A stretch of DNA of 64,000 nt from Auricularia sp. M13 (lineage: Eukaryota > Basidiomycota > Agaricomycetes > Auriculariales > Auriculariaceae): positions 930,001 to 994,000 of the forward strand of contig CM073196.1 of NCBI GenBank assembly GCA_037042915.1, in the 5' to 3' direction. The notes under the pieces were generated by a model. It was not told where the DNA came from. It worked only from the letters and a program-made list of their open reading frames with translations, and made no database searches. The translations under genes were made by a program, and so were the position numbers. Shown in pieces: positions 34,620-53,380 of this stretch. The first letter of the stretch is position 1. Every line of letters starts with the position of its first letter.

Positions 34620-35703
34620 ATGCCTGCCTCGATTAAAGATCGCGTCGATGCTCACGGTACGTTCCCGGATGTTTGTTCTCCGCTGTCGTCTTACATCGCT
34701 CACGCTGCGCGTCGCCAGGATGGGTCACCCGCAGCTGGAACTCGCTGTGTCCGACCCGCAAAGACAAGAAGATCGCCAGGCCGCTGAATTGCTTCATGCT
34801 CTTTCGCACCTGGTGGGTCGCCAACCAGATGCACCTGCCAGAGAACAACCCGCCGCCTCCCGTGAACGGCAGGACCCTCACGACCTCCCAGCGCGCAGCC
34901 AACGCGTGGAACGAGCTCAAGCCCAGCGAGCGCGTCGTCTGGCAGCTGCGCGCGGAGGCATGGCGCGACCGTCACGCGATCGTCTACCCTGAGTACAAGT
35001 TCTCGCCGCGTCGCACGAACGGCAAGCACCTTACGCGCAGCCCGACCCCGGCATCTGGACATGGCATGCGCCGTCGCTCGCTGTCCGTACCGCCGCTGCC
35101 TGTTGGCCAGCAGTACTTCCAGACCATGGACGCTGGCGCGTCGTCGATGCCATCCTCGCCGCAGCAGGTTCCCGGGATGTACCCCATCCCTGAAGGCTGG
35201 AACCCATACGCTACGCAGCACACGGACGCCTCGCCCATGGCCCAGTTTCCCGCTCCGGTACATCACTTCACGCCCCAGCCATCGCACCCTTCTCACACTC
35301 TGCGCAGGTCATAACTAACGCTATGGGCTTCAGCTTTGGCGGCGCGGGAGAGCCGGTTATGGACTTCTCGACCTTCGCGCTCGACAGCAACCTCACGTCA
35401 CCAGCGGGCAGCAGCGCGCACCCCGACGAGTTCATGTACGTGCACGGCGCCGACATCTGGGAGAATTCGCCCTTCCAGTTCCCGCCCGTGGACGGCGGCG
35501 CGGGCTTCACAGTGCCGGGACCCGACTCGGTATACATGGCGCCGTACGCGCCATTCCCCGGCGCGCCTCTCGTCCCCGAGGGCAACTTCATCCCGCCGTC
35601 GTCCCACCAGCCCGCGCTCCCCGTGCCGGTCACGCCATACCCTTTCGTCCCTTCGAACGCGCCGGTTGAGAACGACGCTGAATATGCCTACGAGCAGCAC
35701 TGA
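34620..35703 (+). CDS. HMG-box transcription factor
   Basis: Exons 34620-34656, 34719-35257 and 35308-35703 give 323 residues. Residues 32-105 match a MATA/Sox-type HMG box: RPLNCFMLFRTWW, then SQRAANAWNELKPSERVVWQLRAEAW and HAIVYPEYKFSPRR. These boxes bend DNA and bind sequence-specifically. The acidic-poor, Pro/Ser/Gly-rich remainder, including SPMAQFPAP and a Phe/Pro/Asp-rich C-terminus, looks like an activation region. A loop of about 15 residues (MHLPENNPPPPVNGRTLTT) separates helix 1 from helix 2 and is longer than in canonical boxes. Fungal relatives regulate mating, light or development; which applies here cannot be said. Confidence 0.88.
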
Positions 35704-36859
35704 ATGGTGTCCCCTTCCTCTCCTCAAAGACACTTCATTCCTGTGTTATTGTAGCATACTTACAGCTCGTCGACCGTGTATCTTTGGATGTGATGACGAC
35801 CTCTTCTATGCATACCCCACCATCCTATGCCTATCTCTTCCTTATCCACATCTCATTCGACTGTATTTTGGATTTCTGCATTGGGGTGTATATCCCTCCG
35901 TCTTCGTCTAATCAAGACTTCTTCCTCCATTGCCCCATGTCGATATTACCTCGCATTTCACTTTGTAGCCTATTACGAATAGCTGGAATATACGTCACGA
36001 CTTGTCGCTTTCGACACTTGCACGACACTTGCAGCTGCACAGCTTTGCTCTTTGACTTTTTCCAAACACGAGGTTGATCTTGGGACAATCGTTTGAATGG
36101 CTGCCGCTGCAAGCAGTGTACATAACCGCCAAACACGGGGGGTCTGCACCAGGTCTGCACAATGCAAGCGAACCGATGCAATCTTAGATCTCGTCCGCCA
36201 AGCCAGGTCTCGCAGCAATCTCTGAATCATCCTCCACGTTCCCATCGAGCGCCACTGCGCAGACATCACGTTTCCCACGCAATGCACGACCGCCTCCGCC
36301 GGCGGTTTGGGGTACGCGGACACCGGGATATCGATGTGCCCCGTCCCCGCACATGCACTGTATCAGCACTGCTTTGCTCCTTCCGCACTCAGCACGAGGG
36401 CGATTCTGCTTCTCTGGCAATGCACGCTCATAAATTTCCCCGCCACTGCACAATGCGCCACCGCGACGGCGATCACACAGCATGCAGGGTTGTTGGAGGT
36501 TATTAGTGGTTCTTAATATTCCCAGATCAGCAATAATGCTGCTTGCACGCTGCGCTCTGAGGCATTGTTGCTGACGGGGTTGTCACTATGTAGGACGCAA
36601 TTCATCCAGAACTAGTCCACGCAGCACGCAGCATACAGTACTATACGGTGCTTGTCTCCCGCCATCGCAGAACCCCCCCACACGCGAGAGTTCCGTTGAC
36701 ACCTCTCGTTGGGCCTCACGATTCATGATCAGGACCGCCGGTAACCTTGCAGCTCTGATGCATGATGCGCGAAGCATCTCCTTTTGTGTAGAACGGGCAC
36801 ACCCAGCCCTCCGCGAAGGTCGAGCCTACGAGGCCGAGGATGTAGCCAAAGGGTCTATA
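35704..36859. other. Intergenic stretch up to the transposon end
   Basis: Contains the 3' UTR of the HMG-box gene, CT-rich in the first 250 bases, and a GC-balanced stretch without credible frames. It ends at the first recognisable terminal sequence of the KDZ-type element. Confidence 0.4.
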
Positions 36860-36925
36860 TTCTGGGATAACCCCCACACATTTCTGGGAGCACCCTAACT
36901 GGCCGGTGCCCCACATTTGAGGACT
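36860..36925 (+). repeat. Left imperfect terminal inverted repeat of the KDZ-type element
   Basis: The core is TTCTGGGATAACCCCC, followed by a looser match to the right end over about 50 bases. Some similarity also extends about 30 bases outward (CCAAAGGG and a GGCCGAGGAT/GGCCTCGGAT block), so the true terminus may be nearer 36828. Confidence 0.6.
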
Positions 36926-36936
36926 ACCTAATACGG

Positions 36937-37008
36937 GGGGCCCCATGATAGTTGGGGTACCACAAAGACGGGTACCCAGATTTGCGTACCCAACTATCGT
37001 GGGGCCCC
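36937..37008. repeat. GC-rich hairpin near the left end of the element
   Basis: The arms are GGGGCCCCATGATAGTTGGG at 36937 and its near-exact reverse complement ending at 37008, with one mismatch and one extra G, around a loop of about 25 bases. It lies between the left terminal repeat and the transposase stop. Confidence 0.8.
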
Positions 37009-37183
37009 AGATTCGGTATGCCTAAGACACTACCGAGGCCCTCGCATTGTCGTGACGCAAGCCGGCGCACAGACCCTCCCTCGCAAAGTCTACTCAGGGA
37101 AGAAAACTGCCTAAGTACAAGATGACAAAGAATAGTTACAATATGGGTCGTGCATTAGAAAAACGCTTGTAACCACGGGAACT

Positions 37184-40100
37184 TTACCGACACCCCGTCC
37201 GAATATTGTGAAGGCGGCGCTCCCGGTTCCAAGTCGCCAAGTATGTATGAATGTAGATGATAGCGTGACGCTGAGTCATGTAACTGAGTGATCGTCGAAT
37301 TTTGAGGAGTCCGCGGTTGCCGCACTCTGCCGCACTCGAATTCACGGCGGCGAGCTCACTGTCGTTCTTGTAACTGCTGATCATGCAGCACTTCGAGCAA
37401 CGTGTATGGCCTTTAGCGTGAAACCCGTCGATCACAAACCGAGTTTTCTTGAAGAAGACTGGCTCGCGCAACATGCAGTAATGCGCGAGTGCACACGCGA
37501 AGTCGTAGACGACGGTCTCAGGGGGTGTCTCCCAGCGAGTAAAAAGTGCCGAGAACACGTCGTTCCGTCCCTCCCCTTGGGAATGCAATGGAAACCGAGA
37601 CAAACGAGATGCGGGCACCACGCAGCCATTAGCCCGCCCGTCTGGCCCCTGATACCGTAGGCTTCGAAATATTTCGAACAGCCAATGCCGCCCGCGCCTC
37701 CGTCAGTGACAACAGAGCGGTCCACTTTGGCGTCCCCAGGTAAATGAGGATATTGCGGGCGAAGTCGAACCCGCGGCCGACCATAAAAAGCACCGGTCTA
37801 TGCAAAAATGAGGCCTTCAGACGCACATATGACTGTCTAACTCACCTCTCGCCAGTTCTCACTGTCGTCGAACGGTTCCGCAGGCTCAAAGTCGTGCTCG
37901 CTCAGACTGCACATAACTCGAATCGCGCGTTGCCGCACGAAGCCAACCACACCCCGCAAAGTCTGCGAGTACGACCCGCTCTCCTTCCACTCATGATACG
38001 CAACAGCGCCCAGGGCCGGCACGGTGCGTTTAAGCACGTTCGCCGCGTTCTCCTCGTTGTTTTCAAGACAGCGTAATGCCACCCAAGTCGATGCCGGCGT
38101 GAATAGCAAAACCGATTCATAAGCAAGAACCTGCGCAACATTAATGACAGGCAGAGACAACCAATATGGCACGCACCTGGTTCAAGAGCTCAAGGTATAG
38201 CCGCCTGCTCTCTTCGCCGACCCCGTAGTTGGGGGTCACGATCACTTCGAACATGGAACCCAGCGCCTCATTGACAAGACCTAACTCCGAACCAATCCCG
38301 GGTAGACTCTCTCGCATTGTTCGGTCGACGAGATCTCGCTTGGACAAACGCTTCGCAGTGGCTCGTGCGGCTTTCTTGATGTCGACATCCGCGTCCGGAA
38401 CAGCGCGCGAACTTCCGTCGTCTATCTCTTCGCTCTCGATACCAGCGACTTGACTCTTGTTCTCCTTCGTCAAATGCTTGCGCCAGCGCACTGCAGCCTG
38501 AGCTCGCTGCCGCAGATGTCCCCAAACAATCGAGGTCGCTTCGATCGGCGGTCGCACAGATGAACGAACGGGAGCGCCGGGCAGAATAGTCGTTGGCGGA
38601 GTCAAAGACGACGTGACATGTTTTGCTTTGAAGCCCGCAGTTACACCGTCGAAGATCACGCAGCGCGGGTTTGGGCCGCACTGCTCACACTGGAAGCTGT
38701 CCCCGAGATCCTGCAGACGACGGAACGAGAACCATACACGTCGAAATGTTTCGTCAGTCACAAAGTCCACACGGCTGTCATGTTCGATGTAGGCGCGAGA
38801 GACGACGGTGGCGTAGGCGTGGAACGGGAGTTCATGCGCCGTGATGGAACTCGTGAAGTTGTTCAGCAACTCGTGTGTGTAGACGCTGCCGTTGTTGAAG
38901 TTGAATAGCCCGTACTCGCGCAGGTCGGGTCCAGCGTAAACTTGAGATCCCGGACACGACGAGCATGCCTGCACTTCGATAGAGGTACTGACGGCTGACT
39001 TGGATCCGTATACTGTGCAGTGTATCGTGCGCACGGGCGATGCAGACGGAGAGGCGGCCCCGCAGCGACACCGTACGCGCTGACCAAGCGGCAGCACAGG
39101 CGGCAGGTTCTCTACGGTCGCCACCGACTCGACGGTGTCCCCGGGCAGACGACACCAGCGGGGTGGGCCTACTGGACAGTAGGAAACGCTGCGCTCCTTC
39201 TCCTTGTCGTTGTCACTCAACTCATCCGCTGGCGGATTGTCAGCGGGGAGATCAATTGAGAAGCCCCTATACATACCTCTCTCGCGCGCTTCAGTCCTAG
39301 CTACTTGTTCATCATCCTCCTGGACGGCGTCGTCTATGTCGCGCCCGACGGAATCATTCATCCGAGCTATTGCCTGCCGTAGCGACCGGCGAAGCTTCCC
39401 AACGTGATGGCAGTTGGGCGTTCGATCCTTGCTGCATGCCCATGTGCCACCATCGAAGGCAGAGCCTGCGTGGCTGACGAATACCGGGGGTGCGTCGTCG
39501 GACATCACGGCGAAGGTCCACTGCGGAACACCGGTTTCCTCCTCGCCGCATCCCTCCAGCGGCACGAACTCGTCACCGTCTATGCGGTTGGTCAATATCA
39601 TATCATCTGCTTGTACCAAAATGCTAACGTTGGTCTGATAGGATGATCCAAGCGGGAGCGTTCGGGTCCGTAACCACTCGTGTATGAACACACTCTTTAT
39701 GGGCTTTGAAGTCTGGGCACGGACTACATGTATACGACGCAGTGCCGTCAAGTTCTACATCGGCGCAGATAACAGTCCAACCCGTAACGCCGGGCAGACG
39801 ACAGTCTCGGTCGAAGTCGTACATCTGTGCGACCCATGTCCGTGCGTCCAGTTGACAGAAGATCACACTGCCCTCGAGCACAAGATCTCGATACATCGGA
39901 TACGTCCCGTCCATCGGCAACGAAGACGCGCCAGGCAGCGCCCCCGCCTTAACATGATTCTGGGCGAGCGTGGCACATGTGTTGCACCACCGGCCGTTCT
40001 GAGCCTCTTCATCGCCGGCCTGGCCGGGCCTGCCTCCACTGCGCGTGGTGACACGTCCTGCGGCAAGCTGTCCGTCGCCGTCAGCGAGCCGACTGCCGTA

Positions 40101-40219
40101 TGACCGTCATTGATCTTTCGAGCATCCGAGAAATTATCTACTACAGGCAGACAGTCTTCATCAATGGCTTTTCGTTTACGGCCACGGCCTCGAGCAGGGG
40201 CAGGTTCAGTGAATGACAT
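37184..40219 (-). CDS. KDZ-superfamily transposase, one apparent 1-nt frameshift
   Basis: Five exons, 40105-40219, 39678-40057, 38177-39634, 37846-38130 and 37184-37797, joined by 43-48 nt introns, give about 950 residues. The N-terminus is basic (RGRGRKRKAIDED). A cysteine-rich zone follows (WCNTC, then CSPCPDF and HKECVH), as in the zinc-binding modules that precede KDZ catalytic domains. The RNase H-like core shows VDRSVVTDGG (first catalytic Asp), WCPHLVCLGFH, VYDFACALAHYCMLREPVFF (second Asp), FVIDGFHAKGHTRCSKCC and SSAAECGNRGLLKIR (final acidic residue). Near 37575 the match passes from one frame to the next in a G-run (IPKG to GEGRND), consistent with a one-base loss or a homopolymer sequencing error. 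Otherwise it looks whole. Confidence 0.88.
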
Positions 40220-41193
40220 CTCCGCGCTACCTCACCCACCTGCAACCCCTCGCCGCCCGTTGACAAGACTGTCACACGAGTGGCCCAGGAGTCACAGTCC
40301 AACGCCGTTCACAGACTGTGATACGACGCGCGACGTGGACGAGGCAGCACGGGGAAAGGGGGAGGGGGAGAAAGTTTTAGTAAAGCGCGGCGAGCACGTG
40401 TAGCGGGCTCACCACAACGTGCACCTGCGGAATACCGGGTCAGACCACGGTAACGGCGGTGGGTTAAACGCGTACCTAGGCGCGCGGGCTGGACCTTGTC
40501 GTCGAGGCCGAGTCGGCGTGGAGCGGCAGTGGTGGTCGGCGGCGGCGGCGGCACGAACGTGCGCGTCGACGAAGGTGCGAAGACGAGAAAGAGATGCGGC
40601 AGCAATTGGAACCCCGCATGGGCTCAAGTCCCGTAGCGGAGTCGGAGCTCAAACGGGTCTTGAAGCCGTGCGGGGTTTCAAATGCCCCTTGCTCTCTTTC
40701 CGCTCGGCCCACCGTGATCACAGTCGAATGTGAACGGGCGGCAGCGAGCGCTGGGCCGCGGATTAGCACGTTCGTGTGCATTCGCGGCGGGCGCGCGTGA
40801 GCGGGGGGCGGGGCCATGTTATGTAGTTGCTCTGGTAGCTCGTAGTTCTCGTGTGTCTCTTGGCTTTTCGTCCACCTCGTGCTATGTGTCTTCCTTGGCT
40901 GTCGTATTGCCCACTCCTCATCCTCACCTCCCTCTCTTTGGTGTATCCCATGTAACGTTGCTCGTGACGAACAGTGCTTTGTTTTTTGCGTGTCGAATGT
41001 CTGAAACTGGTGTGAACTTGAATCCACGAATTAAGGTTTGAAATTAAGTTTGAGTCGCCCATGACATACTGAACAACTGTGCAGGCCTTGGCGCCGGCGC
41101 TTAACATGACTGTTGATGACTCAGCAGGTGAGTAAAGTCCGGATCGGGATATGGATTGCGCGCTAAACAAACGTAGTAACTGGGATCTATCTA
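40220..41193. other. Upstream region of the transposase with a GC-rich palindrome
   Basis: This stretch lies between the transposase start and the stop of the next minus-strand gene. A hairpin with 25-base arms (AACCCCGCATGGGCTCAAG at 40609 and its near-complement ending 40676) sits in its centre. A looser inverted similarity continues outwards for about 60 bases on each side. It may be a small nested element or a regulatory hairpin. Confidence 0.5.
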
Positions 41194-42532
41194 TTAGACT
41201 TGAGGCACGTTCTCTTTATCTGCCCGAGCGGCGTCCAGCTCCTTGCGCAGACGCTCATTCTCCTTCTCCTTTTCCTCGTTGCGCTTCTTCCAGAACTCGA
41301 TTTGATCCTCCTGGTCCTTGTTTTTCTTCTCGAGATCCTTCAGGTACTGTTCACGGAACGGCTTGAGTTTGTCATAGACGACCTCTCTGATGTTCGAGAG
41401 CAGGTCGGGTACGTCCTTCGTGATCTGTTCGGACTGCCAAGTCCTCATGATGCCGGTTCCGCCGCGCGGCAAGAACAGGCAGAACGCCCATCCGTTCGTA
41501 CGGCTGGCCAGAGTATCGCCCTGCGGCAGACATCAACGGAGTGCGCACGGGGGGCGGGTTGACAAACCTTCTGCGCCATCGCCTGGAACATGCGAGGTAT
41601 GCGCTTGGCCTTCTCGGTCTGCGTGGGATACTCAATCTTGCGCAGGTTGTTGCGTTCTAAGTCTGGCATCAAGTGAGTGTGCGATGCATGGGGAACATCA
41701 CCAAGGTCACTCACCCAAAGGGAGAAGCCCGGCCGATGTCGCCTTGAGGCCGCCGCGCAACACATACGTCGGCCGCTTCTTGCTCGACGGCTTCGTCAGG
41801 GGGCCCGGTGGCATGGTCAGCGCGTCACCAGGTGCAACGACGGGCGCCTCCGTGTTGGTAACGACGCCCTGCTTGTCTTGCTCCGACACGTCCATCGGCA
41901 CGACGTCTTGGACGTCTTCGACGTCAGCCGCGTCGTCGTGGTTGATGTCGCCGTCGTCGTCGTCATCCTCGTCGTCGCTTTCAATATACGGGCCAGCGGG
42001 AACGAAGTCGGCAAGGGTCTTGCCAGGCGGGATGGCCAGCCTGGCCTTCATGAGTGCGGCATTGATCTGGGCTTCGTCGACCTTGCCGTCGTTGAGCTCG
42101 AGCGCCTCAGCAATGACCGCGTCCACACGGCGGGAGAGCAGGTCGGTATGCGCCGCAAGGACGACTTCCTCGGCGAGCTTGGCTTTGGCGGTCAGCGCCG
42201 CAGCCCCACCATTCTTGCCCTAAACGACATAAGTTCCAGCACGACAATAACACCGAGTCGTGCGTACCTGGCATTCCGCTGCTACATGACCTTTCATGGG
42301 CTTACCGCATGACCTGCACATCCTAGGTTTGCGTGCGGGCTTGTCCTGCGTCGGCGACGAGATGGTCGAGGTCGACGAGCGCGTTTTGGCCCGAGTGCCG
42401 CGTGCTGCAGGTGCAGGAGTCGCAGGTAGCTCGGCGAGCGCAGCGCGGGCCTGCTTTGCCTTCCCTGCAAAGTCGTCAGTGTGCTGCTTGTCGACGGCAG
42501 ACACGCTGCTCACGAGTCTTTGAAGTCGCCAT
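41194..42532 (-). CDS. Cargo gene A: zinc-knuckle, acidic and coiled-coil protein (380 aa)
   Basis: Five exons, 42514-42532, 42268-42464, 41715-42219, 41568-41662 and 41194-41520, join in phase for 380 residues. Near residue 60-75 lies CRSCGKPMKGHVAAEC, a C-x2-C-x6-H-x4-C pattern like a retroviral-type or plant-type zinc knuckle with a longer spacer. A helical Ala/Glu-rich middle follows, then an acidic run around ESDDEDDDDDGDINHDD. The last third begins RNNLRKIEYPTQTEKAKRIP and ends in a strong coiled coil of alternating Lys and Glu (LEKKNKDQEDQIEFWKK). I do not recognise a named family. Its position between transposase and other cargo suggests an accessory DNA- or protein-binding factor of the element. 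Confidence 0.7.
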
Positions 42533-43157
42533 GGCGAAGTCGCCTCGAATGTGGGTGTGAGGAGACGAGTTGAGCCGGAGTTCAAATGGGGCCCAATATT
42601 TGTGAGTGTCTGGGCCCCCCTCACTTGCGTCCATGCAGGCTGGTGACTAAAAGGACAGCAGGTCTTCCCACGCTGGTATCTGAGAAGTCCATCTGCCAAC
42701 CGAATGCTGTCCTTGACTCACCTTGGCACCTGATACCTGTCGTAATCTCCGCCTGATCCGAATGGTGGCATCGAGTTCCCTTGACTAGCTCTCGTCCGGT
42801 ATGGGACAATTACTGTCAGCAGCAGTCATGCACACCACAGTACGGTCGAGCACGAACAAACGGCTGCAGCAAACAGCTTGAATACCTGTGCAGGACTTGT
42901 CCGAGCCAACCCTGAGCCCTACCTTCGCAGTCGCACAATAGACTATAGGCGAAGACTTCTCCACTTAGCACAGAGTGTTTCAAGGATGAATTCAGCGCAC
43001 TTCTTTCGCGCCACCGCCTCCGCCTGTTCACTGGGGCAATTCTCACGCTCACGGTTGTCTCACCCTTTGGCACCGTGTATGCCCTCTAGGTTCAGGAGAT
43101 AGAATATCGAGCGGTCGAACCAACAGCACTTCGTCTGACACCGTCCCCAACTGCGCA
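42533..43157. promoter_or_regulatory. Divergent promoter region of cargo genes A and B
   Basis: The two cargo genes start at either side and point away from each other. Near the A side a pair of GGGGCCCA and TGGGCCCCC (42588-42620), about 15 bases apart, mirrors GGGCCC-pair hairpins near both ends of the element. Confidence 0.5.
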
Positions 43158-44685
43158 ATGTACACCCAACGCCGCATCACGTCTCCGCCCATGGCTCGCA
43201 TCGCTGCATCTGCAGGCCGCCAGCAGCGTTCAACACCTCTCGCGCGTCGCACTCGGTCTGCTCGCGCCGGAGTGTCACATCTCAGCCCATCCGAACAGCT
43301 CGACCTCGCCGAGCTCGCCAACGTCGTCTCCTGCAAGGTCGCATACCTTCATTATCGTCGCACCCAGCACCCCAACAACTATTCCCCTGACGTCGAGTTC
43401 ATCTGCGGCCCGCACGACCCGAACCTGAAACTTCGAAGTGTCGAGCCCCCGCTATGGTCTGAAATCATGTGCTCACGGTGCGGGGCCGTCGAACCGCATC
43501 TCGACTCGTTCGTTGGGCGCGACGATGCAGAACTTACGTTTATAAAGGTGCTTCGTGAACTTGCGGTTCATAGCTCACACTCACGTCGTTATAGTGTCTC
43601 AACTGTAATGCGTTCAAGGACTCGGATACCCAGGACAAACAGGTCACCACCTCGCCTCGTTGCCCCGATCCCTACGGCCCGTTCGCAGTGTACGACAGCA
43701 AGAAGAATGAATTCAGAACTTGGCTTGCTCGGCGCGCCTCAGAGCGTCAGGCCGAAATAGGTGTGATCAATTCTTTGCTGACTGTATGCATCTTCTCACC
43801 GTCTGCAGATCGAGTCCAGGCTGAATCGCGTTCTCCGTCCGGCTCGCGCACTTCATCCGCCGAGAAACTACATTTCTTCGGAACCGACGAGGAGTCCAGC
43901 GATACCGAGTCGAACGCTTGGCGCCGCCTACTCCATCGCTCTCGAGGACCACTTGCAGAACTCCCGAAGAGCTCGAAGTCGCGGCCTGTCAAAGCTGCTG
44001 GCGCCGCAAAACGTTTACCAGCACGGTCAAGAAACCGCGCATCACGACTCGCCGTCCGACTCAGCCGACCCGGAGCAAGACCGCGAGTGTCAAAGTCGCG
44101 GGAAGCAGCGCGCTGCCGCATTGTCCAAGACACCGTCTCCTCCGCCCACTTCGCCTTCTCCGGGCAGCGACACCGCGGCTAGTGCATCGGTGCAGGCAGC
44201 TAATCGGACGTCGCCCGCATTCCGCTCACACGGACCTTCGCCTTCAAAACCCGGGAGGTCAAGTTCAATCTTGAGTTGATGGTGAGCGATAGTGCAATTC
44301 GTTTTGTATCTGTGACTAACAAATGTAGAATCGTTCTTACCACGAGCTGACCGTCGCGATTACCGATAACCGCTTGACTTGGAGCAGCATCAAATCCGGC
44401 CTCGCCATGTTTTTCGTCGACGATACACACGGACTGGAAGTCTTCGACACAATCGGGCAGCAGTGGCGCCGTTTCGGCCTGGGTACCTGCGTCGGCATTC
44501 ACGTTTCGCAGCAAACAGTCGTTGCCCGCATTGTCCACGGTCGCGCATTGTCTCTCGAGGTCATCGAAATCCCAACCACGACGGACGACGGTGCCTCGGC
44601 CAAGCCTCAAATCGGCGAGAAACGTTTCGCAGTTCGTCCGCTGAAGATGGAAATGCGGCCCACGAAACGTACCAAGACTGCTTAA
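43158..44685 (+). CDS. Cargo gene B: CxxC zinc-binding protein (439 aa)
   Basis: Exons 43158-43547, 43595-43762, 43809-44189, 44258-44281 and 44329-44685 sum to 1320 nt, 439 residues. The N-terminus is Arg-rich. Two CxxC pairs (CSRCGAVE near residue 112 and CLNCNAF near residue 132) are spaced like a zinc ribbon. The centre is Ser/Pro/Arg-rich and probably disordered. The last 125 residues, from VKFNLELM through NRSYHELTVAITDNRLTWSS to EVIEIPTTT, look like a compact beta-rich domain. The 24-nt fourth exon and its acceptor (GGGAG) are the least certain. I recognise no family; zinc-dependent nucleic-acid or protein binding is inference. Confidence 0.65.
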
Positions 44686-46010
44686 ATTTCTCATATGGCC
44701 AATCGTCCCCGCTCCCGCTGCTATGATCTCTCATTTCGCTACGCTCCCCCGCTACCGCTGCTTAGATCTTAATATTCATCTGTGTTCCGTATCTTGAATG
44801 TCATCCTCCTGATTTGGTGTCGCGCTTAATCCCGGATCGACAGATCGACAGATCGACAGATCGACAGATCTGTGTGCCTGCCAATCCTCAATCCTGGTAT
44901 CTCGCATGTTCAAAACGTGTACGTGCATTGGGTGTTCAGTGCATTGTATCGCGGTGCACTGCCCAGCATTGTCATGTCGCTGACGCTTCTGCTGCAGGTC
45001 GACCTACTGAGCGTAGGCGAGGTTCGCAAGAATATGTACCTCATTTACGAACCAAACATACAAAGGCAAGTTCCACCGCTGCGACGAATTTGCCGCGTAC
45101 GTGTCTCAACCGCACGATGTAATATCCGCGTGTTTGCATCGTGCAGTTCGGCCACATCCTCGAGTTTGAATACGTCGTTCGTTGCGGCCTTGCTCAGCTG
45201 ATACGCAGGGCTGACTTAATTTCTGCAGGGCACCTCTCAGTCAGTTTTCCGTCATCGCTGAGCGCTTGCCGGCTCGACGTGCATCTCTCTGATCCGCCCT
45301 GACAGGTACTCCATCAAGGCCCGGGTCTGCACCCCTGCACTCACGTTCTCTCCACGATGGCGAGTACGCGCAGCGCGTGCGTGAGCATATCAGGCGCACG
45401 GTAATGCTACGTAGAGTTGCGTCCGGGCGCCGACCTGTTGGTACTGTACCGTTGGCGGAGTTCCGTTTCGGGAATGTTGCCGGTCATCCGAATCAACCGG
45501 TAACTTCCGCATCTCCTTCCGCACCGTCGTACAGCGCGCTGCGCTCCCGAGCTTCCACCCCTCATCCCCTTCCAACGGCACTGTGGCGGAGGGAAATTGC
45601 AGTCTTGCAGTTCCCTCTGGACTTTGCCTGTTGCTTGTGGCTTCGTTAACAGTACAGTCTTGTACTTAGCGAAGGACTTGCAACTTCGCCCCTACTTGCC
45701 TGCGAACGGAGCCGCCGATCCATCACGATGCTCGAGGAGAACGAGACGTTACCGCCCGAATCAGGGGTCAGGTACGTTCCTCGATCCTTCAGATAGTGCA
45801 TGATCTGACGATGATCTTGCACTGTTGCGTGATCTGATGATGATCTTGCACTATCTAGCGCGGATCGCGACACGGCGGACGCGGCGCCGAGGCGTGGTTC
45901 GCAACGCGACCCACGCCTGAGGATGTGAGCTCTGTTTAGTCTTGGTGCAATGAGCACGTGCTAACCGCTGCCAGTTCCATCCCTGGGCGACGCGTCACAC
46001 CAGGGACGCC
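44686..46010. other. Non-coding stretch inside the element
   Basis: Between cargo genes B and C there are no convincing frames; those at 44814-45200 and 45377-45650 lack good starts. It contains the 8-bp tandem repeat at 44835 and a hairpin at 45790-45856, in which AGATAGTGCA and TGCACTATCT flank two copies of a GATCTGA(C/T)GATGATCTTGCAC unit. Confidence 0.5.
44835..44870. repeat. Short tandem repeat of GATCGACA
   Basis: The 8-base unit GATCGACA occurs four times in a row, ending GATC, just downstream of cargo gene B. Confidence 0.95.
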
Positions 46011-49000
46011 ATGGACGTTGACGATTCCCAATGGCTTGACACCGTAAGTCCTTGCTCGTGCGGGCGCGCGATATGATTTTGATTAGGTGCATCAGTGAAG
46101 AGTACTGGCTCAATTCCCCCCCGCCGTCGCCTCAGGTCGACTGGGACCCGTGCGTACTGCCAGATCACGACGATGTCTCAAGCCTGACATTCATTTCAGA
46201 TACTTCAACTATTCCGCGGACCAGTTGCTTTCGTCGTCGGGGCCAGTTATGTTGGAACCAGCACCGCGATACGAAGACAAGAATAATTGGTTCTTCCTCA
46301 TGAAGCACGCCCTCCTCATCGACGAGGATATGAAGAAGATTCGTCGCGAGTTGCGCAGGCCAGCCGTAGTGCGGGCGCGACACAGCTTACGCTTAGAGCT
46401 CGCACCCAGGCGTCCAAAGGTCTATGTCGTACCTGGTTTCAAGGAGTACGCGGCTGCATGGTCCGAGGAGTCTTCCATGCCCGGCAAGCCTGGCACCATT
46501 CCTCACAACCCCAGTGCGGGCTCGGAAAAGGCGTTCTTCACCAGGCTGGCAGAATGGTACCTGGCGGCTCAGATGTGGTGCAACTGGCGCAACCACGAGA
46601 ACGTCCTAGTCAGGCTCATGCTTGGCGCAGAGGAGGCGCGCGAACGCAGCCAGCTCCCTCCGTCCACGACAACCCCCGAAGTTCTGCGCACCATCGTACC
46701 GTTCCATATCGACGAGAAGACGTACGCTGCAGACCCGACCGCGCCCCCGATTGGTCGTCATCATCGTTGGTGGACCTATACGCATTTGCCGGCGCCGCGG
46801 GGATATAACCCACGTCACCGCATCCTCATTCTCAGCAACGTCGACTACATCCCACCGTTGCCACCCAGCATGCGTCCGAGGATGCGCATCGATGGCCGGT
46901 ACGGTCCTCACGAGGAGACGAGATATCCCGCGTTCCATGAGCCCACCAGGTGGCACATGGCGTTCATCCCGACCGAGATGCATGGCCGCGTCGAACGACG
47001 CGTACACTCGACGCTTACCCGGGAGATGGAGTTCTACGAAGTCGACTTCGACGCGCACTTCGAGACATTCGACTTCGGCAGGACGTACCGACCGACACGC
47101 GCGCTGCAGAAGGCCATGCGCAAGTCTTGGGCAAGATTCGGCGACGTCGAGGAGGATCCCGAGCTGGAGTTGCCGGCGAAGTTCGTCGCGCAGCGCCCCT
47201 TCAAAGCGGTGTTAACTGGCCGCCAGGCCATGCAGTTTATCTTCGACCATAACCTCACGCAGCGCGACGTCAAGGAGACTATGGCGGCTTGGCAGCGAGC
47301 ACTTGCGGAACTGCGAGGCTGGCATTCGTACGCGTCGAGTCGCGCTTGGCTCGCGCGGTTCCTGGTGCTCAACAAGCGCATGATCCCACTCGCTGCCGAC
47401 CTTCGCGTCAGCCATTACCGCAAGTATACGCGCGGCGTCTTTACCGACAACGAAACGGTCGCGCGCCAATATGCGCAACTCTGCGTTCCCGTTTTCTTTG
47501 TGACCACACCGATCACCCAGTTCTGGACAGCAGACCCCCAGCACGACCAAATTGAGGTGTCTCCGCCGTTCCCCTGCGAGACCCGAGCCTACGATGAAGG
47601 CCAATACGGCTATCAGCCCGCGCATCTCGTGGCCCAGCAGGACTACTTCGGCGCCGGCAATAGGGGCAACTACAATACGGAAGCGTCACACGCAGACGAC
47701 GATCCCATGATTGTGCAGAACGACGTCGACTACGGTGGCTCCCAGCGTGAGTACTGAACTTTTGTTTTGACTCTGAGCATGCTGCTGACTGTTGAGCAAG
47801 CAGGACCGTCTACGTCAGCTGCAACCGGCCAAAAACGCAAAGGTGAGGTCAGTTGTAACATGCGCGCTACATCTACTGATCTCTCTCGTATGCAGCTTCT
47901 GCGATCGAGGACGCTGAGAAGCCGACAACCAAGAGCAGCAAGGGCAACAGGCACCCACCAGCGATAGGACTGCCAAAGCGTCCTCGATCCACGACGCTCA
48001 ACACGTACCCACCTTGGTGGCCCGCGCAATGGCCCGTCGCGCACAACGCAATGCAGGCTCACTCGGAGCTTGACCCCGGCCGCGCTCGCTCACTCAAGAA
48101 GGCGCAGGATTATCCCATCCCAGACTCGAGATATATCGCGGCGTTATTCGCGACACCAGTACTTGAGCACTTCGGAGCCAGCGCCAACGAGATGAACCGT
48201 TCACGGCTCTTTGCCTCGTACATCATTCTGCGGCCGAAGCTGCTCTTCTCCTTGGCGACAACGCCCGTTCGCGAGCTTGCGGTTTTCAAGGCGAAGGAGT
48301 GGAAACAAATCTTGAACGGCCATATCCCGTATCGCGAGCAACCAGCGTATATGCATCGCCTTGGCTTCCGTGACGCGTCGGTACCCGCAATTGTTGAAGT
48401 CGACGATGCTGCTATCGATCCCGCATTCCCGTCTGTCATCGACAATGTGCTGCAGGCGGCTGCCGCTACATCGGCCGCCACTTCGCAGACAACTACACCG
48501 TCATCGGCTGCGTCGCAGCTCCCGACGTCGACTTCCGCATCCTCGCGCGCGCCCACTCCCGATGCTAGTGACGACGACGACAGCGATATCGACATGGAAG
48601 CCGTGCACGCGGCCGATCCACCTGCGGCAAGATACTTCGAGCCGTACGAAACGGTGCTCGAGCGGTGCCTTGCCAGGGAGGACGAGCGATATCTCTACGA
48701 GCCTTCTGCGTGGCGGCACGTCAAAAAACACCAGAGCCGCGCCATGAAGACTTTGATTTGGTGGCAGGAAATGGACTCGAATCTTACTGAAGACGACGTC
48801 CTGGAGTTTGCTGCAGTCGGCGAGACGAGGCGCACGAAGATGCTGGACGAGATGGAAGACTGCGATATCTGGTGGGATTATGAGCACGGTTGGGTCTTCG
48901 TCTTTGAGAACGCTCCGATGACGCACGAGGGTCCTTTCATTGGAGAGCGACTGACGAAGCCTGTGCGACTGTGGGACGGCAACCGGACCAACCCCAAGTA

Positions 49001-49992
49001 CATTCGCGGCACATCCGCGACGCAGACAGTGCAGTTGCGCTTGTGGCACGCGCAGAACTGGAGCACAAGGTCAGTTTCTTTCTACTCATGCCCATGAAGC
49101 TAGCTCACTCTGTGCAGCGTTCTAGTGCCAATGATGCCGCTAGGTGCAGTTGGATGTCGCTCGAAGTTGGGGTGGGACCTCAACGACGACGACTACTACT
49201 TCTACTTCCCGTCGGTGCCGCGCCGCGCATATCAGCAACCGAACGAGAATGCTTTGTCTGCCACTGCTGCTGCGCGCGCCACAGCCCGCTGCTGTTGTTC
49301 CCGCTGTGCTATCTCCGCCGCTACCTGTTGTCGCCGCTGCCTCGCAGCCCGCGCCGCCCGCTGCTCCTCTCCCGCCGCCGCCGCCGCCGCCACCTAGCAA
49401 TGTTGTCCCTTTTGCGCCGCCACCGTCTGCTAATCCGGTCGCGCCGCAGGGCATTTCAAAGCCGCTGAACGACTTGTTGTCGCCGCAGCGCATCATGCGG
49501 TTCGACGACATCGAGCTGTCGGAGTGGAACCCTTCGGACAGGGACAAAGAGTACTCTTGGCCCAGTGACCGGGAGCGTCGTCTCATCGTCTGGGACGTTG
49601 CAGAGCTCTCATTCCGGCTGAGGCTCTTCCAGCTTGACGACAAATTGCGCACTATGTACCCGTTCGACCCGAAGCTAACTGCTCAGTCCAACCTGGAGCG
49701 GTCTCAGATGATTTGCAGAGTCTGGGACTCAGACTCTTTTGTGCCCAAGTCGGCAAGCCCGCTGACCTCGCCTGAATGGACGCAGCGCATCGAGCCTGTG
49801 TTAGCATTCCATGCCATTGTCTCTACATGGCCGCGCGTCGATCTTCCTTCGAGCCAGCAGGTATTCGACACCGAAGACAAGTTCGTTGAGTTTGAGAAGG
49901 CGGTCTGGAATGCGTACGCGCGCACATACGCGGACTATTTCTTCTTCGAGGCCGCTGTTCCACTGCAGCACCCTGACAATAATGCCCCCTGA
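46011..49992 (+). CDS. Cargo gene C: large protein of unknown family (1203 aa)
   Basis: Seven exons, 46011-46043, 46136-46149, 46200-47746, 47804-47842, 47896-49069, 49118-49214 and 49285-49992, sum exactly to 1204 codons including the stop. The first 500 residues are a dense, well-ordered Trp/Arg/His-rich region (HRWWTYTHLPAPRGYNPRHR, then WARFGDVEEDPELELP and FIFDHNLTQRDVKETMAAW). A basic linker (KRKASAIEDAEK) leads to a second ordered block with WWPAQWPVAHNAM and WWQEMDSNLTEDD. Pro/Ala repeats and a C-terminal block (YSWPSDRERRLIVWDVAEL) complete it. There is no membrane helix or signal peptide. I see no transposase, helicase, TET/JBP or reverse-transcriptase motif. The second exon is only 14 nt. 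The sharp intron phasing suggests it is under selection. Confidence 0.72.
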
Positions 49993-50174
49993 TTACGCCT
50001 GCTCGTTGTACTTACGTTTGCCCGTCCCCTTGCCAGATGATTGTCTTACGCTCCATGTCTCAACCAATGAAACCCGTTTGCTCTCACTGTAGTTCAGGAT
50101 TTGGACTCGCGAACTTGACTCTTGCAGCTCAGTTGAACGTCTTGGCACCGGCATCTTGCCACCGGCATGCCGAA

Positions 50175-50252
50175 CTCACCGGCATGCTGCACCGGTATTC
50201 TTACCCCGCGCTCGAGTCACCGGCATGCTGCACCGGCATTCTTACCCCGAGC
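50175..50252. repeat. Two-copy 41-bp tandem repeat
   Basis: Two nearly identical copies of a unit that begins TCACCGGCATGCTGCACCGG and ends TTCTTACCCCG start at 50175 and 50216. Further CCGGCATGC palindromes flank them. The repeat lies just downstream of cargo gene C, inside the right end of the element. Confidence 0.85.
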
Positions 50253-50396
50253 TCACATGCCGGCATGCCGCAGCAATCATCGCTGCATCAAGTTGCCCGA
50301 CTGAGTCTCAGCCTTGATGTAGTACAAGGGCCTGCAGTAGTGTCTGGGGCCCGCAAAGGTATGGGCCCCTAAGCTATGAGGGTACCCCCAGACTGG

Positions 50397-50412
50397 GGGG
50401 GTTATCCCAGAA
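50397..50412 (-). repeat. Right terminal inverted repeat core of the KDZ-type element
   Basis: GGGGGTTATCCCAGAA is the exact reverse complement of the left core. Inward of it, bases 50344-50396 continue to resemble the left end, including a GGGGCCC/GGGCCCC pair at 50346-50370. Confidence 0.65.
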
Positions 50413-52837
50413 AGTTGCCCTTTGGTTATCCGAGGCCGAGTTGGCGTACATGCAACGTTTGACCGTTTGCCCCGACCAAGGCCCGCTGTCTCTAACAAAA
50501 CTAGAATCACTGCAAGTATTCACAAGTCGATAGTGTACGAAAGCAAACAGAGTCCAACGTGGAAAGCCGAAAAGACGTGTCACAAGTAGAGTAAGCGGGT
50601 TTACTTGCCTGATCCGTACCAGCCTTCGCCCTTCCACTGCTTCAGGCGCATAGCCAGCGCAGAACGAGATTCGTGATGATGCACCTCGTCATACTTGTCA
50701 TCGACTCGCACGCGCTCCTTCTTGGACTTCCTGTAGTTGCCATGAGGATGATAGTCGGGGCTCGGGTCGTGGTCTGACTCGGAGGTATGGTCCGGGCTAT
50801 CCTCCTCGTCGGCGCCGTCAAAGGTATTCACATCAGCATTGCCCTTAGGTTCTGCTGACCCTGCTCCGCCAATAACCTCGTCTGATTCACCAGGTACGTC
50901 GTCGGCGTCGTCCTGGTTAAGTCGCGACCGCAGGCGCAAGGAGGTTCGTCGGTCCATCTTCTGCTTCTTGTGCGAGGACTGCACAACAGAGGGCGCGACT
51001 GGATTGACCTCCTCGTGACGTCGCTTGAGAGAGCCGTCGCTCGTGACAGAGCTGCCGCCGCTAGGCACACTGTACGTCCCACTGACAAGCGAGACGACGC
51101 TGGCGGGCTGGCTATTCGAAGTGGCACTGCGCGAGGCGGAGGAGAACGCTTTCGTACGAGCGGCGTCGTCCAGTGCCGCCGTAGGGCGAGGCCGCTCGGT
51201 AGTGAGCCGCATATCTAGATGCATATCGTCGTCCTTCACTGCTGCCTGGTGCATGTGCGATAGTATGAGCCGTTGGAAGACAATGATGGCGTGCTCCTCC
51301 GGAAGGTTTGGGTATAAATGCCACGGAACAGTTAGATAATCCGCCATTATCAGGAAGAGGTCATCGAGGGCGCCATTCATGTCGGGATGAAAAAGTCCAA
51401 TTAGATACGGCTCCAATAGGCAGCCCCATCGCTCGACCTCCCGATGAGAGTCGCCCACGACATGACCGAGCATGACTTGGCAAAATTGATCATAAATCTC
51501 AGTGCGGTCGTTGGTAATCTGCTCTTGTGGCAATGCGCGAGCGGTGCTGAATAGGAACACCCAGAACGAACTCTGGACATCGAAGAGCAAAGGGTGCCCA
51601 GACGGAAGGGCGATAGGAGGCCGATTACGCACAGGCTGCACGCGCCGAACCTCTTCTGTCTTCAAGATGTCCACGAGACGGCGGACGAGAACGTCGTCGA
51701 GGTGACCGACTGCTGCCTTGTAATGCTGCTCCATGGATACAAGGTCGAGCAGGCGCTGCTGCAGCCGCACGTAAGAGCGTCCGGTGCTAACGAAGCCGCT
51801 GTATAGCGACTCGGACAGGCTCAGTTCATAGGGGCTGAACATTGGAGTACCCTGAAAGTAAATATTCAACATTTTGCTTCCCCAGAGTATCACGATAACT
51901 ACTTACGGTCCGTTCGACGCGAGTCGATCCATCCATCTCAGAGATAATGGCACCATGATCGAGGTCGGTCACCAAAGCGGAAGACTCGAAAGTCGTCTCG
52001 CCAGTGTCAGGGTCATAGACTCTCCCCAGCTTCTCCGCCGCGGTCGAAAGCTCAAAGTTCAGTTCTTTCGAAAGCTTGTCCCTGGAAGACAAGTGAGTAG
52101 GAGTATGCAGAAACTCGCGCATCACATACATGATCTCGGATATGGGCACATGGTCCATCGTCTTCTTCTCCCCCTTGCTGAAATGCTTCGGATGCATAAG
52201 ACAATTGCCGTAGCTGAAATCGCGATGGCGGATGCCTTTCGTATGCAGGACGAACAACGCTGCAACAACAGATAAGCATAGAAAAGTGATGCACACTCAT
52301 CCCGCGTACTCATCATTGAGTCGAACCAGACGTAAAACAGCTCTCGTATTGTCAGCGCCGAATTGAGAGGTTCGCCGATACTTTCAAAAAGAACGACCTC
52401 CTTGACGCGTCGAATGGCGCGCGTTTGGTTGAGCGCAATCTCCACCTCGTCGTCCTCGAGGAGCGGGTCGCCCAGGTTCTGAACGATGGGCCGCGTGCCG
52501 TCCGCGTAATCGTCACGTGTGACCACACTCCGATGGCGAGCCAGGCCAGGAACATACTCTCCAGTGTGGGCGTGCTCCAAGAGTCGGCCTTCCGTCCAGC
52601 GCCCCTTGACGTCCTGCCATGAGATCTTGAGGAATCCCTCGACCTCGTTCCCAACGTACTTCTCCGAAAGCTCATCCTCAGACAACTGCGCATCACCGAC
52701 GATCCACGACGCAAAGGTGACGGGCCCAGGTGCTTGGCCGACATGGAAGGGGACAACAGCCAGCGTGGCCTCGCCGACCTTGACGTCCCATCGGTGGAAA
52801 TCGTTCTGCATCGGGTTGTAGGTGATGGACGTGTCGC

Positions 52838-53380
52838 AGGCCCCCGGAAAGCTCCGATATATGTCCCATCTAAACACCGTGCAATTTGGCCGCTCAGGAG
52901 GCCGCATGACACATCTAAACGACGTCAGATTTGGGCTCAGGTGTGCACCACGTCCCATGTAAACGACGTCAGATTTGTTCCGTGGTGCGGCGAAGCCGGC
53001 CGGAAATCTTGAACACCGCAAGCGGCTTGATCGTGAACCACAAGCTGGGCGCAGCGTGTCAAGCGCCTCCGCCTCGTGGTGGGGTTGCAATTCGCCTCAG
53101 CCGTGGTGCACCTCTAGCCTGTGCCCGCTGGGCAACGGTTACGGGTGCCTGGCATGGCCGCTGTGCATTTCCTGGCCCCACACGAGGTTCACAGGTACGT
53201 GACCAGCTCATATTTAGGCGGAACCACGTTCTAATCGTATAAAAGCGCGGCAGCCAGCTAACCGGGAAACGCCGAGGTTCCAGGTAAACGACGTGCAAAA
53301 TGGGCCATCGGCGAGGTCTAAACGCCGTCACATTCCACCTGGCGGCGGATGGGACCTCTACCGGAGCTTTCCGGGGGCCT
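52838..53380. mobile_element. 543-bp MITE-like TIR element inside the FunK1 gene
   Basis: The ends are inverted copies beginning AGGCCCCCGGAAAGCTCCG, with similarity continuing to GTCCCATC. The 8-bp sequence CGTGTCGC lies directly outside both ends (52830-52837 and 53381-53388) as a target-site duplication. Subterminal repeats of the form TAAACGACGT or TAAACGCCGT occur near 52917, 52960, 53287 and 53321. There is no coding capacity. An 8-bp duplication is typical of hAT and of KDZ/Zisupton transposons, so it was moved by a transposase of one of those groups. Confidence 0.88.

Follow-up and report, generated by a model that had tools for sequence, protein, structure and literature searches.

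Is a 13.5-kb block of the Auricularia sp. M13 genome, in which a KDZ transposase and three multi-exon genes lie between inverted repeats, a single transposon, and are the three additional genes its cargo or part of its own machinery? The block lies within a 64,000-nucleotide stretch of DNA that we call the window (GenBank assembly GCA_037042915.1, contig CM073196.1, positions 930,001 to 994,000; here C4:930001-994000), and a first-pass annotation of that sequence had described it as one large KDZ-class transposon with a private gene set. We find that window positions 36839-50432 (13,594 bp; C4:966839-980432) are one transposable unit. On a reading that we hold with moderate confidence, it is a multi-gene KDZ element in which a large companion protein would serve as a second mobility protein and two central genes would form an exchangeable module. 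Searches covered the strain's own assembly (52.1 Mb, 14 contigs), and all genome-wide counts refer to this one genome of a single species.

The 16-base sequence TTCTGGGATAACCCCC occurs exactly at window positions 36860 (+) and 50397 (-), 13.5 kb apart as first annotated; these are its only two matches in the window at up to two mismatches, and none appeared in 100 shuffled windows. The longest inverted pair within 34-53 kb has arms at 36849-36878 and 50394-50423, 80% complementary over 30 nt. Extension by eye to the flanking duplication takes the left terminal inverted repeat to 36839-36878 (+, beginning GATGTAGCCAAAGGG), and the inverted-arm search together with alignment of the ends places the right one at 50394-50432 (-, ending CCCTTTGGTTATCCG), so that the inverted ends of the first-pass annotation (36860-50412) are real and the true ends lie slightly outside them. 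Immediately beyond, the 8-bp sequence AGGCCGAG stands at 36831-36838 and, identically, at 50433-50440. With ends set at GATGTAGCC...GGTTATCCG in the window element and in a near-identical copy on C8, and with the right end GAGGTAGCC in the C9 element, a diverged relative whose ends are conserved, the 8-bp flanks are identical at both ends in all 3 elements for which both ends were read (window, AGGCCGAG; C8, GCCCTTGG; C9, GTTAGAGC); a control at shifted positions gave agreement in 0 of 600 cases. Just inside the left end, at 36937-37008, there is also a 20-bp inverted repeat, 95% complementary across a 32-base gap.

The C8 copy (C8:2211583-2225187) matches the window block at 99.5% over 13,620 bp and has non-matching flanks. 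Exact occurrences of the 16-mer number six genome-wide, namely the window pair, a C8 pair 13.5 kb apart and two single sites. A 24-base left-end pattern, for which up to three mismatches were allowed, likewise finds six places, all exact: four with the gene set (the window, C8, C9:1418072 and C3:793.8 kb, the last read at its left end only). The other two are a 1,315-bp left part at C8:1201.6 kb and a bare end, 38 bp long, at C3:4003.2 kb. Other copies with the same four genes and ends are thus present in this genome (C8 and C9, and C3 by its left end), and the terminal repeats occur independently of the gene set at two of the six left ends, the left part and the bare end, and together with it at the other four. 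The bare end (G000:C3:4003194-4003231, 94.7%) has no listed KDZ match nearby and may belong to a different, unread element that uses these ends. Composite or chance pairing of repeats was rejected because of the near-identical second copy and the 8-bp duplications; these, with the collinear gene sets of diverged elements, uphold the view of a single large KDZ-class transposon with three linked genes travelling along, and its mobility is suggested by the copies and duplications.

The transposase gene (37187-40106, -) consists of several reading-frame blocks, conserved in six other elements: a KDZ core (37193-37797 and 37840-38181), a CxC4 cysteine cluster (38144-39754) and an N-terminal block (39627-40106). 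That this is a KDZ transposase, as first annotated, is confirmed by a Pfam scan in which CxC4 (PF18717) scores E=2.3e-39. The KDZ domain (PF18758) falls just below its cut-off of 26.6 bits in the window (24.4 bits, E=2.7e-5) and above it in the C8 copy (29.5 bits). In the window copy the KDZ core appears to switch out of its conserved frame near 37.57 kb, where the C8 copy has a single open frame of 204 aa; the C8 copy differs by frame-changing indels in the CxC4, zinc-knuckle and companion genes. Such differences reflect either real decay or assembly error, and either copy may be inactive.

The largest of the other genes, which we call the companion, encodes a 1203-aa protein (46099-49992, +; stop-to-stop frames 46099-47757, 47880-49097 and 49144-49992) and proved to be widespread. 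Its first block has relatives at 57 merged places in the genome (65 matches) and its last block at 73 (81 matches). For comparison, the KDZ profile search gave 149 matches at 95 merged places, to which the window's own KDZ domain, unlisted by the search, was added by hand, and the CxC4 search gave 78 matches at 42 places, one match (C10:1963646) having been counted together with a second at a distance of 10.7 kb. Of 163 candidates the KDZ search scored 150, and it proceeds by single exons; both KDZ and companion places may therefore have been missed. Of the 73 companion places, 55 have a KDZ or CxC4 match no more than 25 kb away (8.1-8.2 expected, with the sizes of contigs C12 and C13 guessed and C14 left out), 46 of them in divergent orientation. 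The first block alone gives 30 of 57 places within 12 kb (3.5 expected) and 42 of 57 within 20 kb (5.4 expected), these expectations being based on rougher contig sizes. A general clustering with transposases was rejected by a control with the unrelated Plavaka elements (87 matches, 47 places), near which only 2 of the 73 companion places lie (3.1 expected). The genome is rich in both classes, with at least 95 merged KDZ places beside the 47 of Plavaka.

Seen from the transposase, a companion lies within 25 kb, in any orientation, at 37 of the 42 CxC4 places. Away from CxC4, 20 of 78 KDZ places have a companion match within 25 kb (about 6 expected at a random rate of 7.3%). Conversely, 34 companion places lie more than 27 kb from CxC4, and 16 of these are near another KDZ match (within 27 kb), 13 of the 16 divergently; the spacing is about 9 kb in four cases and 18-22 kb in most of the rest. 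The companion is, then, a regular constituent of CxC4 elements that is present in some other KDZ lineages, and since it also occurs near other KDZ transposases (16/34) many such elements appear to contain it as a component; it resembles part of the transposon machinery more than random cargo. Some companions with long open frames have no detected KDZ or CxC4 match within 25 kb (for example G000:C6:4218714, C12:675632, C9:3222495, C10:2873745 and C1:8887400); these could be a domesticated form, a differently mobilised form, or cases in which the transposase was missed.

Between transposase and companion lie two further genes. A zinc-knuckle/coiled-coil gene, so labelled by eye, occupies 41203-42717 (-) in several exons with further conserved blocks; the conserved part of a CxxC gene lies at 43158-44011 (+), and a tandem repeat of GATCGACA (4.5 copies, 44835-44870) is found in the spacer ahead of the companion gene. 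All four genes of the element are supported by reading frames kept in other elements, so that the three additional genes first annotated are borne out, the CxxC gene on the plus strand. No Pfam family scored above cut-off in the scanned pieces of the zinc-knuckle, CxxC and companion genes. With one window exon of each as query, the zinc-knuckle gene was found at 9 places, all collinear, and the CxxC gene at 15 (17 matches); all of these, 9/9 and 15/15, sit inside CxC4-companion pairs, and none was found elsewhere in the genome. Since zinc-knuckle, CxxC and companion genes all recur across the genome's elements, and the companion also near other KDZ transposases, the set is not private as had been proposed, and we rejected private cargo as a description of it.

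The composition of these pairs reveals what the central position can hold. A divergent companion lies within 27 kb at 36 of the 42 CxC4 places, in a survey of 75 companion places made up of the 73 last-block places plus one middle-block and one first-block match, the two additions being elements without a listed C-terminal match; 2 of the 36 pairs rest on such a first- or middle-block match. The slot between the genes contains a TET/JBP match in 13 pairs, zinc-knuckle and CxxC in 9, CxxC alone in 6 and nothing detected in 8, and no pair combines a TET/JBP match with zinc-knuckle or CxxC (P = 9e-5, relatedness ignored; the elements probably form two clades, so this value does not count independent events). 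Orientation is uniform: TET (13/13) and zinc-knuckle (9/9) genes run with the transposase and CxxC genes (15/15) with the companion. Of 19 TET/JBP matches genome-wide, 6 lie outside CxC4-companion pairs, 4 exceed the Pfam cut-off and none falls within C4:966839-980432, in agreement with the first-pass observation that the block has no TET/JBP gene. Because so few TET matches exceed the cut-off and the other queries were single exons, 'empty' slots may hide diverged genes. The filling of the slot by TET/JBP matches in 13 of 36 pairs of the same CxC4-companion kind indicates that the window element is a sister type of the TET/JBP-carrying KDZ elements.

Divergence among elements differs strikingly along their length. 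The relatives on C9 and C3 hardly differ from one another (synonymous divergence, dS, 0.004). Against them the window element has dS of 1.0-1.1 in the KDZ core (1.13 over codons 71-168; 0.97 over codons 8-168, which include codons upstream of the frame change), 2.4 in CxC4, near saturation, and 1.0-1.3 in the zinc-knuckle gene, and only 0.22-0.25 in the companion. For the CxxC gene, compared with C9, dS is 0.61 over the first 131 codons, with a ratio of nonsynonymous to synonymous divergence (omega) of 0.12, and 0.74 over 156 codons, which reach into a probable intron. Omega ranges from 0.06 to 0.38 for all tested blocks between element lineages and from 0.21 to 0.34 for the companion against C9/C3, leaving out the C9-C3 values of 0.32 and 0.61, behind which stand very few differences; this shows purifying selection on the coding blocks tested as the element lineages diverged.

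In steps of 250 bases, identity between the window and C9 elements left of 43.09 kb is 51-83%, mostly 58-73%, and falls at 52-56% in the last 500 bases before that point. To the right it is 72-98%, except at 44.1-45.1 kb, a gap-rich segment adjoining unread C9 bases, where it is 52-70%. The identity begins to rise within the divergent intergenic region at 42838-43160, which, with the contrast in dS, marks a putative module junction. Protein identities tell a similar story: between the window element (W) and an element on C1 they are 40% for the companion and 62% for CxC4, and between C1 and a further element, C3b, 61% and 79%, whereas between W and C9 the order is reversed (89% and 75%). These comparisons show that the element is a mosaic. 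The simplest reading is that elements have swapped halves within the divergent central region; gene conversion, or a history with two or more junctions, is possible too.

What kind of element do these observations describe? The reading to which we incline is a cut-and-paste KDZ-class DNA transposon with two divergently transcribed halves, the left encoding the transposase (KDZ core and CxC4 cysteine cluster) and the right the large companion protein, separated by a variable slot that holds zinc-knuckle and CxxC genes here and a TET/JBP-like gene in sister elements. The transposase would cut at the inverted ends and insert with an 8-bp stagger. For the companion, regular partnering, orientation and constraint in CxC4 elements suggest the role of a second mobility protein encoded by the element. 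It would work alongside the transposase, most probably by binding the ends or helping to assemble the complex, and the central genes would be an exchangeable accessory module directed, most likely, against host silencing.

Several observations weigh against this reading. The roles of all genes other than the transposase are inferred, and the evidence comes from one species. No companion match lies within 25 kb of 58 of the 78 KDZ places away from CxC4, so that the companion may not be general to KDZ elements; 18 of the 73 companion places are without a detected KDZ or CxC4 match within 25 kb, of the 55 that are linked, 9 lack the divergent orientation, and 6 of the 42 CxC4 places are without a divergent companion. 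The companion has no Pfam family above cut-off and no significant relative in a sequence search of PDB, where its first block found nothing and its last block only weak matches (best E 0.11); AlphaFold models of two of its parts are poor (mean pLDDT 44.5 and 39.8), and Foldseek with the poor first-block model found nothing at E<=0.001. Just 3 of the 13 slot TET matches exceed the Pfam cut-off. The 8 of 36 pairs without a detected central gene imply that central genes are dispensable or were missed. Lastly, the window copy shifts frame in its KDZ core, and several of the differences in the C8 copy alter the frame.

A bolder version, which we regard as tentative and rather doubtful, would extend this to a large group of KDZ elements as two-component machines, built of a conserved unnamed companion and a plug-in slot, in which zinc-knuckle/CxxC would be a functional but unrelated replacement for TET/JBP in evading silencing, with slots and halves swapped by recombination.

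It is also conceivable, if unlikely, that the type was described in 2014 and that the companion is one of the additional proteins of Iyer et al., whose abstract reportedly mentions such proteins in several KDZ elements, among them one with a divergent HMG domain. Against this, the companion has neither an HMG box nor any other Pfam family above cut-off, and no such companion was found described in the searched portions of the KDZ literature (PMC12730594, PMC12810828, PMC8290104, PMC7641404, PMC12062965). The companion may nonetheless be among those additional proteins, and we do not claim it as unpublished.

We consider it marginally less probable still that the companion, too, is an anti-silencing factor, acting against host DNA methylation or heterochromatin in the manner of plant Vandal/MuDR regulators, with the transposase alone moving the element. 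The TET/JBP matches in 13 of 36 sister slots belong to a class proposed, in the part of the source consulted, to counter silencing (PMC12730594); an arms race might give the 40-41% identity of the companion's first block (W versus C1 and C3b) where the CxC4 block has 62-64%; and the 58 KDZ places away from CxC4 that have no companion suggest that some KDZ elements may move without one. The companion's omega of 0.21-0.34, however, signifies constraint and not positive selection, it is present in CxC4 pairs both with and without TET matches, and the Pfam scan gave no methylation-related domain.

Passenger cargo in the manner of Starship elements, that is, host genes captured and carried by chance or for the fitness they confer, appears very improbable. 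The presence between the ends of three multi-exon genes that belong to no recognised transposition family, and the 18 companion places without a detected transposase, would fit it, but all zinc-knuckle (9) and CxxC (15) places lie within CxC4 pairs with no copies found elsewhere in the genome, 55 of the 73 companion places are near KDZ or CxC4, and the gene set is kept between diverged elements where variable cargo would differ. The recent fusion of two independent mobile units, a left KDZ element and a right companion element, which would give the halves different ages and could account for the difference in dS, about four-fold or greater, between left genes and companion against C9/C3 and for the rise in identity near 43.1 kb, is the most improbable of all, given that both outer ends, with 8-bp duplications round the whole, are seen in elements of two diverged lineages, that 36 of 42 CxC4 places share the arrangement, that the 16-base end repeat stands in the window element at the two outer ends only, and that exchange of halves between elements accounts for the same data.

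A reading frame and a gene flank the element. On its left, a plus-strand frame at 34637-35314 ending about 1.5 kb from the element matches the HMG box (PF00505, E=3.3e-5) at 24.7 bits, just below the cut-off of 25.4. On its right is a multi-exon gene (50601-53096, -) that we take by eye to resemble a fungal FunK1-type kinase; three scanned pieces of it gave no Pfam match at E<=0.01.

The best-known trait of KDZ elements is that they spread TET/JBP genes in fungi. Should the companion be a regular part of a large KDZ group, and TET one of several things that an exchangeable slot can hold, these elements would offer a concrete system in which to study what transposon movement requires; whether unrelated genes in one slot do equal anti-silencing work would then be a testable matter. 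Elements of three kinds, with a TET match, with zinc-knuckle/CxxC or with neither of these, occur side by side in this genome, where they can be compared for methylation and expression.

Among known systems, the element resembles Starships as a fungal element with non-transposase genes, and differs from them in its inverted ends, 8-bp duplication and recurrent gene set; no tyrosine-recombinase captain was present among those of its reading frames scanned with Pfam, which were a part of them. In the way it would work, and not through any demonstrated sequence relation, it recalls two-gene DNA transposons (Harbinger/Nuwa, MuDR, En/Spm) in having a transposase and a second element-encoded protein. 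MuDR and En/Spm are two-gene DNA transposons. In Harbinger/Nuwa elements, the transposase is paired with a Myb-like protein according to the part of PMC12730594 consulted.

Within the KDZ class, KDZ1-KDZ3 of Cryptococcus neoformans, which have been shown to move, are described in the consulted part of PMC12810828 as about 9-11 kb long, with inverted repeats of 139-241 bp, CxC1, and duplications of 8 bp (KDZ1) or 4-8 bp (KDZ2, KDZ3). They are like the window element in their inverted repeats and in duplications of up to 8 bp, and unlike it in having CxC1 in place of CxC4, longer inverted repeats and, in that part of the source, no mention of a companion. In Laccaria there are TET-carrying Kyakuja families whose duplications measure 7 bp and which lack inverted repeats (Kojima 2025; PMC12730594, in part), in contrast to the 8-bp duplication and inverted repeats found here. 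Zisupton elements have an 8-bp target-site duplication (same partial source), and the window element shares with the Zisupton type a KDZ core, a cysteine cluster, inverted ends and that duplication, a likeness that is not a branch assignment by transposase tree; it departs from the type in its three added genes, divergent two-half layout and inverted repeats that are imperfect and short (about 40 bp). TET/JBP genes, finally, are reported to occur in KDZ elements (PMC12730594, in part), and compared with such TET/JBP-carrying elements of mushrooms the window element has zinc-knuckle and CxxC genes in the slot and no TET/JBP match, while pairs of the same CxC4 type and companion do carry a TET/JBP match elsewhere in this genome.

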